A stretch of DNA of 64,000 nucleotides. Origin: Acidimicrobiaceae bacterium. Its GTDB lineage: Bacteria > Actinomycetota > Acidimicrobiia > Acidimicrobiales > Poriferisodalaceae. The stretch lies in the NCBI GenBank assembly GCA_905182565.1, contig CAJJCB010000015.1, forward strand, positions 1 through 64,000. The letters run 5' to 3'. The translations under genes and the position numbers were made by a program. This document shows, in pieces, positions 56,356 to 60,287 of the stretch. The stretch's first letter is position 1. The number at the start of each line of letters is the position of its first letter. The notes below the pieces were generated by a model. The model had not been told where the DNA came from. It worked only from the letters and a program-made list of their open reading frames with translations, and did no database searches.

Positions 56356-57437
56356 GTGAGCAGGAATGGGGAAGAGAAGAGGGCTTTCGAAGAGATGATG
56401 AAAGTCACGCTAAGCGCGAAGAGGTACTTAGCTCAGAGCACACTGCAGATGATTCCGAAGACTTAGGGCTTCGCCCAAAAACCCTAAACGAGTTCGTGGG
56501 GCAAAATGAACTCAAAGAACATTTAGGCATAATTCTCGAGGCAGCAAGGGCTCGAGAGCAAACTCCAGACCACCTGTTGTTTGCTGGGCCACCTGGTTTG
56601 GGGAAAACTACGTTAGCGGGAATTGTTGCATCGGAACTCGGGGTCGCGATCCATGTCACTTCAGGTCCGGCCATCGAACGTGCCGGAGACTTAGCGGCAA
56701 TTCTCACAAACCTAAATGATCGCGATGTTCTATTCATAGATGAAATTCACTCGCTCCCTAAACAGGTAGAGGAAGTTCTCTACCCAGCGATGGAAGATTT
56801 TCAACTTGATGTCATCCTTGGTAAAGGACCGGCTGCGCGATCGATCAGATTTGATTTACCTCCGTTCACGTTAGTAGGGGCAACAACGCGAACAGGACTA
56901 ATCGCTGGACCGCTTCGAGATCGCTTCGGCCTAGTGGAAAGACTCGACTACTACTCAGCGGATGAACTTCAGGCAATTGTTTCTCGAGCGGCAGATATTT
57001 TAGATGTCTCGATTGATAATGAGGGAGCTGTCGAGATAGCGGGAAGAAGCCGTGGAACTCCACGAATTGCTAACCGCCTCTTGCGAAGAGTCAGAGACTA
57101 TGCCGAAGTCAGAGCTGATGGTCGTGTTAACAAAGAGGTAGCCAAAGAGGGGTTAAGGATCTTTGGCGTTGATGAGATAGGGCTAGATAAAGTAGATCGA
57201 GCCATTTTAGAAGCGATAACTGTCCTACACGAAGGAGGCCCAGTCGGCCTTTCGACGTTAGCTATCAGCGTTGGCGAGCAAACTGAAACCGTAGAAGACG
57301 TTTATGAACCTTTCCTGATACAACAAGGTTTGTTGCAACGTACCCCCAGAGGTCGAGTGGCTACCCGCGCTGCGTTTGCTCATCTTGGTTTGCCAATCCC
57401 AGAGCGTGGTTCCGCTGGACCATCATTGTTTGATTGA
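56352..57437 (+). CDS. ruvB: Holliday junction branch-migration ATPase RuvB
   Basis: A 361-residue AAA+ motor. Walker [10 protein letters not shown] is at residues 79-87, Walker B is LFIDEIH, and [17 protein letters not shown] holds sensor 1 and the arginine finger. The C-terminal winged helix ([13 protein letters not shown]) binds DNA. Overlaps ruvA and the next gene by ATGA. Confidence 0.97.
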
Positions 57438-58075
57438 TGTCTAGCCCTCCCAGGAGAGTTTGGTACGCGTCCTACGGCTCAAACTTATTAGAAAAAAGAT
57501 TTCTGCTGTACCTAAGAGGAGGGCGATTCAGCCCAGGACATACCAGCCATCCTGGTGCGCGTGATCAGGCATTGCCGTTAAAGCCTCCGATATTACTAAA
57601 AGCTAATTACGAACTCCTTTTTAGTAAATGGTCTGAGCGGTGGGGTGGAGGTGTCGCGTTTATAAAACCAAACCCGCAAATGGCAAGTTGCTGGATACGT
57701 TGCTGGGATGTCACTGAACAGCAATTTTTTGACATAGCGGCTCAAGAGAATCAGCTATCCCCAGGCCATTTAAATCTTGACATATCAAAACTAGTTAAAG
57801 AAAAACAATTAGATCTTGGCGCTGGTTGGTATAACGAGGTTCTTCATCTTGGCGACTTAAATAACCAACCCATACTTACTTTTACCGCAAGTAGCGTTGT
57901 TGGCCACATGAAGCCAAGCACAGCGTATTTAAGTGTGCTTATCGCTGGTTTAAAAGAAGCATCTTCATTAAGTAACACTGAGATTCAAGAATACCTCGTT
58001 GGGGTAGCCGGAATTCATGGCCAGTGGACACAGCAGGAGCTATACAAAGTCATTTCTCAAACTGTTGACCCTTAA
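57434..58075 (+). CDS. Gamma-glutamylcyclotransferase-like protein
   Basis: A 213-residue protein opening with [15 protein letters not shown], the YGSN substrate loop of the GGCT/AIG2 fold. It is then GGRFSPG and a WGGGVAF stretch. Similar proteins are sometimes labelled histone deacetylase in databases, which nothing here supports. It is translationally coupled to ruvB (ATGA) and lies 13 bp before queA; this odd position suggests co-transcription, not shared function. Substrate unknown. Confidence 0.72.
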
Positions 58076-58088
58076 AGTAGGTAGCAGT

Positions 58089-59114
58089 ATGAAAATGATT
58101 GAGTTCGACTATGACCTTCCTGAGCATGCGATAGCGCAATTTCCGGCAGAGCCGCGAGATAGCGCCCGGCTGTTAGTCGACCAAGGGTCACAGATTGCTC
58201 CGCTGCATGCGCAAGTAAAAGATCTAATTGACTATCTAGAGCCAGGAGATCTACTTGTAGTAAACGAAACAAAAGTAATCCCAGCACGAATACCGTTAGT
58301 GAAAGAAACTGGCGGTTTGGCAGAGGTCCTTCTCCTCGAACCCCAGGGCGACGTTTGGGAGGCCATGGTTAAACCAGGTAGACGCTTAAAAGCAGGGACA
58401 GAATTACGATCGCTCCGAGACCCTGCGCTTATCGTCGAAGTTGGTGAAGAAACGTCGAGGGGAAGGCGCCTTGTATCAATTATTCACGACGGGAAAAAAA
58501 TATCTGGACTAAATGAAATCTCTGCCTTAGATAAAGCTGGTGAAATGCCGCTGCCGCCTTACATCAAGAATTACGAAGGAAGCTCAAAAGAGCGGTATCA
58601 AACTGTGTACGCCAAAAAACTTGGCTCAGCAGCAGCTCCAACAGCAGGGCTGCACTTTACAGACGAACTTATCGAGAACATCTCGCTAAAGGGCATCGAA
58701 ATAGCCACCGTAGAATTAACCATTGGAATAGATACGTTCCAGCCAATAACCGTAAGTGACTCTACCGATCATGTAATGCATTCAGAGTCCTACAACGTTC
58801 CTGACGCAACGTGGAATGCCTGCCAATCAGCAAAGAGAGTAGTAGCTGTGGGAACTACTACTGTTAGGTCATTAGAATCAGCAGCTCGCGGAAATTTAAG
58901 TGGCCGAACTGATCTCTTTCTCAGAAGGGGAGAAAAATTCGAAATCGTCGACTGTATCTTCACCAACTTTCATCTCCCGAAATCGTCATTACTGCTGATG
59001 ATCGACTCATTCGTTGGAGAGCGCTGGCGGCACCTTTACTCTGAAGCGCTAGCAAAAGGGTATCGCTTTCTGTCTTATGGCGATGCAATGTTTTTGCAGA
59101 AAGCAGTTGATTAA
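58089..59114 (+). CDS. queA: S-adenosylmethionine:tRNA ribosyltransferase-isomerase
   Basis: A 341-residue enzyme of queuosine synthesis; it transfers the ribosyl moiety of SAM onto 7-aminomethyl-7-deazaguanine in tRNA to form epoxyqueuosine. Family marks are FDYDLPEHAIAQFP, LLVVNETKVIPARI and GAAAPTAGLHFT-type SAAAPTAGLHFTDEL. I chose the ATG at 58089, which gives the normal N-terminus; an upstream start lies inside the GGCT-like gene. tgt follows. Confidence 0.95.
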   Translation: MKMIEFDYDLPEHAIAQFPAEPRDSARLLVDQGSQIAPLHAQVKDLIDYLEPGDLLVVNETKVIPARIPLVKETGGLAEVLLLEPQGDVWEAMVKPGRRLKAGTELRSLRDPALIVEVGEETSRGRRLVSIIHDGKKISGLNEISALDKAGEMPLPPYIKNYEGSSKERYQTVYAKKLGSAAAPTAGLHFTDELIENISLKGIEIATVELTIGIDTFQPITVSDSTDHVMHSESYNVPDATWNACQSAKRVVAVGTTTVRSLESAARGNLSGRTDLFLRRGEKFEIVDCIFTNFHLPKSSLLLMIDSFVGERWRHLYSEALAKGYRFLSYGDAMFLQKAVD

Positions 59115-59183: not shown

Positions 59184-60287
59184 GTGTCTTTAAGTTACGA
59201 GCTAATAGCCAATGATGGGAGCGCTCGTCGAGGTCGCGTCACTACACAGCGCGGAACTTTCGAAACTCCAATTTTCATGCCTGTCGGCACTCGAGGGGCC
59301 GTGATCCATCTCGATGCGAGAGATTACGCTGATTTAGGAATGGAAGTAGTCCTAGGCAACACTTACCACCTAATGCTCCGTCCCGGTGCAGAAGTTATTA
59401 AGGACATGGGAGGCCTTCACTCGTTCACTAATTGGGATGGCCACATGCTCACAGACTCGGGCGGCTTCCAAGTAATGTCTCTTCGTGACAACGTCAAAAT
59501 TGATGACGAAGGCGTGGATTTCACTTCGATCTACGACGGAAAAAAAGTTAGATTCACTCCAGAAGTTGCAGTCAAGACTCAGGAGGACCTAGGTGCCGAT
59601 ATCCAAATGGTGCTAGATGTTTGTGCTGCTCTGCCAGCCACTGACGATCAGGTCATCATGGCGATGAAACGAACACACCAATGGGCGGAGCGAGCGAAGG
59701 CCGCTCATAGCAGGCCGGATCAGGCTCTTTTTGGAATCGTGCAGGGTGGCATAAATCCTGATCTTCGTCACGAAAGCGGAGCAGCTTTAGCTAATTTAGA
59801 TTTTGAAGGATATGGCATCGGAGGGCTTTCAGTCGGAGAGACCCACATGGAAATGATGCCAGCGTTAAGAGCGGCGCTGGAAGAGTTGCCAACCGACCGA
59901 CCTCGTTACCTCATGGGTGTAGGTGACCCAGTTCGAGTAGTGGATGCAATTGGCGCCGGCGTGGACATGTTTGACTGTGTATTACCTACTCGTTTAGCTA
60001 GACATGGAACTGCATTAACTGGGAACGGCAAACTTAATATACGTAACGCTAAACACGCGCGTAGCGAAGATCCTTTAGACCCAAATAACCCATTTTCTAA
60101 CCAATTCAGTCGCAGCTACTTGCGGCATTTGGCGCAGGTAAAAGAACCTTCTGTGGCTCGCATCATGACGCTTCATAACCTTTGGTTCCTAATTGATCTA
60201 GTGAAACAAGCCCGCAGAGCGATCGAATGTGGCGGTTTTGACGATTTCCGGGCACATGTTTTTGAAGTATGGGCTGAGAAAGCATGA
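59184..60287 (+). CDS. tgt: tRNA-guanine transglycosylase lacking zinc cysteines
   Basis: A 367-residue enzyme that swaps guanine 34 of certain tRNAs for preQ1. Catalytic residues are intact: Asp91 in LTDSGGFQ and Asp264 in DMFDCVLPTR, matching E. coli numbering closely. In typical bacterial Tgt a C-x-C-x2-C cluster plus His binds structural zinc; here the segment reads DPNNPFSNQFSR (residues 299-310), two residues shorter and with no cysteine, while the His331 position remains. GTG start with GGAG 6 nt upstream. Confidence 0.95.
   Translation: MSLSYELIANDGSARRGRVTTQRGTFETPIFMPVGTRGAVIHLDARDYADLGMEVVLGNTYHLMLRPGAEVIKDMGGLHSFTNWDGHMLTDSGGFQVMSLRDNVKIDDEGVDFTSIYDGKKVRFTPEVAVKTQEDLGADIQMVLDVCAALPATDDQVIMAMKRTHQWAERAKAAHSRPDQALFGIVQGGINPDLRHESGAALANLDFEGYGIGGLSVGETHMEMMPALRAALEELPTDRPRYLMGVGDPVRVVDAIGAGVDMFDCVLPTRLARHGTALTGNGKLNIRNAKHARSEDPLDPNNPFSNQFSRSYLRHLAQVKEPSVARIMTLHNLWFLIDLVKQARRAIECGGFDDFRAHVFEVWAEKA

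Follow-up and report, generated by a model that had tools for sequence, protein, structure and literature searches.

A tRNA-guanine transglycosylase without its zinc-binding cysteines in 16 families of Acidimicrobiales

A Cys3His zinc site is described as a hallmark of bacterial and eukaryotic tRNA-guanine transglycosylase (Tgt), one that joins the barrel in providing the scaffold to which tRNA binds (PMC6165067); the passage of PMC9508795 that cites Chong 1995 describes Tgt as zinc-requiring. The window, a stretch of 64,000 nucleotides from an Acidimicrobiaceae bacterium, encodes a Tgt from which the three cysteines of this site are missing. This raises the questions of whether the loss is real, whether other ligands have taken the place of the cysteines, and whether such an enzyme could function with no structural zinc.

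The gene, tgt, lies at 59184..60287 on the forward strand, as do queA and the tgt residues described below, with a GTG start at 59184 and a stop ending at 60287. Its product of 367 aa matches PF01702 with 449 bits and TIGR00430 with 421 bits (421.4 bits vs a curated cut-off of 306.75). Alignment with solved Tgts, from which all Zymomonas mobilis residue numbers given here are derived, identifies the two catalytic aspartates, both invariant, as Asp91 (59454..59456; Asp102 of the Z. mobilis enzyme) and Asp264 (59973..59975; Asp280). The preQ1-pocket residues D145, C147, Q187, G214, V217 and M244 are all present. At the start of the dimer-interface helix (60105..60128), alignment and conservation reveal that F308, Y312 and H315, the counterparts of Trp326, Tyr330 and His333 of Z. 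mobilis Tgt, are kept; in the Zymomonas enzyme, Tyr330 and His333 belong to an aromatic dimer-interface cluster (PMC5395182). A whole-genome search found this to be the sole Tgt copy, ruling out a second, zinc-type Tgt in the same genome.

Between residues D299 and R310, where a typical Tgt reads DPxCxCxxCxxFSR, the window protein reads DPNNPFSNQFSR (60078..60113). Direct reading of the codons and alignment with solved Tgts and relatives reveal no cysteine in this segment and a length two residues shorter than usual. The former fourth zinc ligand, His331 (60174..60176, slightly beyond the coordinates of the preliminary description), is kept, and it is invariant in the 86 cysteine-less and 72 cysteine-bearing Tgts that we read from the order. 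When the protein is compared with the full Cys3His pattern (CxCxxC plus His), the three cysteines are absent and the histidine is present. These observations bear out a preliminary description of the locus, which reported a cysteine-free loop with a two-residue deletion and the persistence of the catalytic aspartates and a nearby histidine (D91, D264 and His331). It also allowed for a cysteine set elsewhere in the protein, and none was found: the only cysteines are C147, C265 and C349, and a check of the whole protein identified no CxC or CxxC anywhere else. Replacement cysteines are likewise excluded across the clade, in which no Cys or His column has been gained and D338, at 63%, is the one new acidic column. 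Its sequence, its fold and its catalytic residues place the window protein with Tgt, and it is not a Cys3His zinc Tgt.

In an order-wide survey of Acidimicrobiales, Tgt was found in 153 of 198 genomes, and we then read the zinc loops of the genes retrieved. In the window's family, every complete Tgt that we read is without the three zinc cysteines. Order-wide, CxCxxC is missing from 86 sequences in 42 genera and 16 families (f1, f13, f17, f18, f25, f27, f28, f35, f36, f40, f44, f51, f52, f54, f56 and f57) and is present in 72 sequences in 60 genera and 31 families. One cysteine-bearing relative, L038, is 60% identical to the window Tgt. The motif occurs in 43/43 Tgts read from other orders of the class, including 13 from genomes of about 1 Mb (f64), and in 41/50 Tgts from the rest of the phylum; of the remaining nine, 8 (f100) have HxCxxC and 1 (L334) has lost the zinc cysteines. 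Among hits from other phyla, the only broken Tgt zinc site is that of a Chlamydiae MAG (L067). Because the loss is common to relatives in the window's family and to 16 families of the order, this alignment across Acidimicrobiia and the rest of the phylum rules out the sequencing or assembly error that the preliminary description had considered.

Several of these Tgts depart from the common pattern in ways of their own. The first zinc cysteine is a histidine throughout f100 (L294, L295, L297, L298, L300-L303). In L334 (G360, f107), from the same phylum, neither the three cysteines nor the zinc histidine remain (LTVLN); here the site was lost independently. The zinc site of L067 is partly lost (DPDLDCYTSQ) and its zinc histidine is replaced by glutamine. 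Within the window's family, Tgts of genus g5 (L027, L033-L037) carry an insertion, about 30 residues long, that follows residue 100 or so and is predicted to be disordered (in the L034 model, pLDDT is below 50 at 101-126). In these proteins the zinc motif is replaced by a longer loop rich in arginine and glycine.

Conservation elsewhere in the cysteine-less Tgts is strict. D91, D145, C147, Q187, G214, V217, M244 and D264 are invariant in 86/86 sequences, as are Y312, H315, H331 and N332, and E219 is kept in 85/86, with a lone E219A exception. Close pairs within the window's family have dN/dS values of 0.04-0.09, and amino-acid change in the zinc-loop replacement is low among them. We conclude from these alignments that the cysteine loss is real and held under purifying selection, and that the enzyme of this clade very probably works without structural zinc. 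An origin of the cysteine loss in sequencing or assembly error, or in a decaying pseudogene, has next to no probability given a dN/dS far below 1, an intact open reading frame, a conserved gene order and the presence of the same loss in many genomes of 16 families.

Modelling of the loop, also raised by the preliminary description, gave a confident prediction. The AlphaFold2 model of the window Tgt has a mean pLDDT of 94.6, with 95 for the loop block at 301-310, and superimposes on the Thermotoga Tgt 2ash at 1.1 A over 359 residues (Z 54.3) as a TIM-barrel Tgt fold, although the method is blind to bound metal and prone to reproducing a known fold. L034, with its long replacement loop, was also modelled as a Tgt (pLDDT 81-87 around the loop and 93-98 in the following helices).

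We consider it likely that the window gene encodes a functional homodimeric Tgt that would lack the Cys3His zinc and in which a small packed turn would replace the metal clamp. The preliminary proposal of a zinc-independent Tgt gains considerably from the comparison: zinc independence is well supported because 42 genera share the lack of the cysteines, a search for substitute ligands found none, the gene is under strong purifying selection, and both the catalytic and the dimer residues have been preserved. Zinc independence itself is what we infer from that comparison. Like other Tgts, the enzyme would exchange guanine-34 of tRNA for preQ1. The ordinary zinc clamp fastens the loop in front of the dimer-interface helix to the long helix that follows; at the C-terminal Cys3His site of the window protein, a short packed turn would take over this role, with side-chain packing and turn hydrogen bonds substituting for the metal and the retained His331 probably holding the turn through hydrogen bonds.

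The replacement turns and the residues around them have changed together. Asn-Pro-(Phe/Met)-Ser-Asn is the prevailing turn in the window's family, with F or M usually at the second cysteine position, and most other families of the clade have a hydrophobic residue at the first cysteine position followed by a Ser-Pro-Ala type turn. Across all cysteine-less Tgts, F, N, L or V usually occupies the first cysteine position. These hydrophobic replacements accompany coordinated core changes at 302/304/306, 327, 330 and 336: at position 327, 67% of cysteine-less Tgts have Ile, whereas 98% of cysteine-bearing ones have Leu, and 330 and 336 are mostly Leu in the cysteine-less proteins, all of which have N285. 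Two positions of the loop that corresponds to the beta1-alpha1 dimer-contact loop, 39 and 42, are altered alongside the zinc loop.

The distribution of remnant cysteines suggests how the site was lost. The third zinc cysteine is absent in every cysteine-less member of the order, whereas f25 retains the first cysteine with a histidine at the second position (ASCPHPASQ) and f40 retains the second cysteine (DAVCPLT), and on this account the alignment suggests a stepwise erosion of the zinc site. A free maximum-likelihood tree of 119 Tgts with the loop columns removed requires six changes, with weak branch support. In a 64-row set, a tree that holds the cysteine-less Tgts as one clade beats the free search by 20.9 lnL (p-AU 0.69). 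The trees are thus compatible with one ancestral loss, short of proof. Columns co-evolving with zinc loss could group rows artificially. The likeliest separate loss is that of f44, because its ribosomal protein L31 is of the zinc type.

The preliminary description read the change as perhaps a metal-saving one in a planktonic lineage. Restriction to one planktonic lineage is out: the loss tracks phylogeny across 16 families whose genomes span about 1.7-6 Mb, and the f64 genomes of about 1 Mb, probably those of marine Actinomarina-like bacteria, retain CxCxxC. The metal-saving part fares better, in that zinc-free L31 coincides with the cysteine-less Tgt, but L36 and S14 of the window's genome are zinc-binding forms that keep their cysteines. 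L31 was typed by its sequence in most of 16 genomes and by match length in all other cases; 14/15 scored families with a cysteine-less Tgt, vs 1/25 with a cysteine-bearing one, have no L31 other than the zinc-free form. The exceptions are f44, in which a cysteine-less Tgt goes with a zinc-type L31, and f12, which has the opposite pairing; f20 probably also has this opposite pairing, since the Tgts read from it have cysteines and two other f20 genomes have a long L31. As the comparison of Tgt and L31 yields only one independent pair on well-supported branches, the coincidence may be one event with a single shared history. The sole ribosomal L31 of the window's genome (G000:C18:110105-110341) is of the cysteine-free type, as in relatives from nearly all families with a cysteine-less Tgt. 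Two genomes of about 1 Mb (L370 and L377, f64) have the reverse of the window's combination, a cysteine-free L36 with a cysteine-bearing Tgt.

The gene order around the window Tgt is queA-tgt-yajC, and we read the two ORFs that come next as secD and secF. The queA ORF (58017..59114), for the next step of queuosine synthesis, matches PF02547 with 362 bits from residue 29, and its true start is probably about 25 codons inside the ORF. A 213-aa ORF between ruvB and queA (57434-58075) has no Pfam match; read by eye, its start contains a YASYGSNL motif reminiscent of gamma-glutamylcyclotransferase-like proteins. QueF is encoded in the window's genome (G000:C22:54180-54533), a TIGR00364 search found no convincing QueC in this genome or in the family members tested, and none of the 16 genomes tested for QueH, the window's included, has it. 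QueC is also missing from some genomes with a cysteine-bearing Tgt. Given that QueF is present and QueC absent, the window Tgt probably acts on a salvaged precursor, preQ0 or preQ1.

How, then, should the loss be explained? It is very unlikely that zinc or another metal still sits at the old zinc site, held by His331 with ligands other than cysteine (Asp299, Asn, Ser or backbone) or by a ligand that the dimer partner supplies. Such a site would account for the invariance of His331 and N332 in 86/86 cysteine-less Tgts and for the first cysteine with a histidine at position 2 in f25 and the second cysteine in f40, yet the loop positions are not conserved as ligands, the loops vary in length and sequence between families, and the gained columns hold no Cys or His and a single acidic one, D338. 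A still smaller chance attaches to an altered function, in which the barrel chemistry is kept and the dimer form, tRNA range or partner has changed, so that the protein is no ordinary Tgt. The joint change of the zinc subdomain and the beta1-alpha1 dimer-loop equivalent (positions 39 and 42) would fit this, but the pocket and catalytic residues are kept bar one E219A, Y312 and H315 are invariant, and tgt still adjoins queA. A working zinc-free Tgt is favored by the adjoining queA, by QueF in the genome and by the GluRS precedent described below. Against it stand the description of E. coli Tgt as requiring zinc, given where PMC9508795 cites Chong 1995, and the lack of QueC in the pathway.

Two accounts of the cause are each compatible with a working zinc-free Tgt. 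Neutral erosion, in which altered packing made zinc redundant and the cysteines drifted off stepwise, the third first, has to our mind about an even chance: it agrees with the remnant states in f25 and f40, the many unrelated replacement loops and the independent losses in L334 and L067, but leaves the coincidence with zinc-free L31 unexplained. That coincidence (14/15 vs 1/25 families), together with the lack of QueC, another zinc enzyme of the pathway, in the window's family, is what favors zinc economy, in which scarcity of zinc drove translation-linked proteins throughout the lineage to forms that need none. We regard zinc economy as rather doubtful, as the L36 and S14 of the window's genome retain their zinc cysteines, the genomes of about 1 Mb combine cysteine-free L36 with cysteine-bearing Tgt, the Tgt/L31 association has a single independent pair on well-supported branches, and QueC is missing from some cysteine-bearing genomes too. 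We are similarly tentative about a broader reading, in which the translation-related proteins of an order-level clade of Acidimicrobiales became zinc-free in a coordinated way (Tgt and L31, along with the loss of QueC) and the Tgt zinc, for a long time regarded as required, would be a clamp that evolution can dispense with and replace by several unrelated short turns.

Compared with the bacterial Tgts of Z. mobilis (1pud) and Thermotoga maritima (2ash), the window protein is alike in fold, catalytic aspartates, preQ1 pocket, dimer-cluster Tyr and His, and queA neighbor; it differs in lacking the cysteines of the Cys3His site and in a loop two residues shorter. The f100 Tgts, including L294, likewise have a changed zinc motif within the phylum, but HxCxxC plus His can still bind zinc, and the window loop has no such ligands. 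The closest parallel in kind is GluRS, likewise a tRNA enzyme, in which structural zinc has given way to side-chain contacts in some lineages only, with the fold kept, and in which a zinc-free domain supports full activity (PMC4381286). GluRS is another enzyme with another domain and was tested at the bench, whereas the window Tgt is known from sequence and model. Zinc-free ribosomal paralogues such as L31p (PMC9825181) are also translation-related proteins without zinc cysteines; in E. coli, L31p is a Zur-controlled second copy swapped with the zinc form, whereas the window Tgt is the sole copy.

A search of the open-access literature, with subscription papers outside its scope, found no description of a cysteine-less Tgt clade; a paper on Tgt in BREX-related systems has no bearing on it. 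The protein family and the kind of change are known; the scale and the enzyme in which it occurs are new as far as this search shows. A deep clade whose Tgt does without zinc would be a natural experiment on the role of that zinc. Its zinc-free enzymes would lend themselves to metal-dependence assays, and the clade would matter for the annotation of Tgt and for drug work on the dimer interface that adjoins the site.
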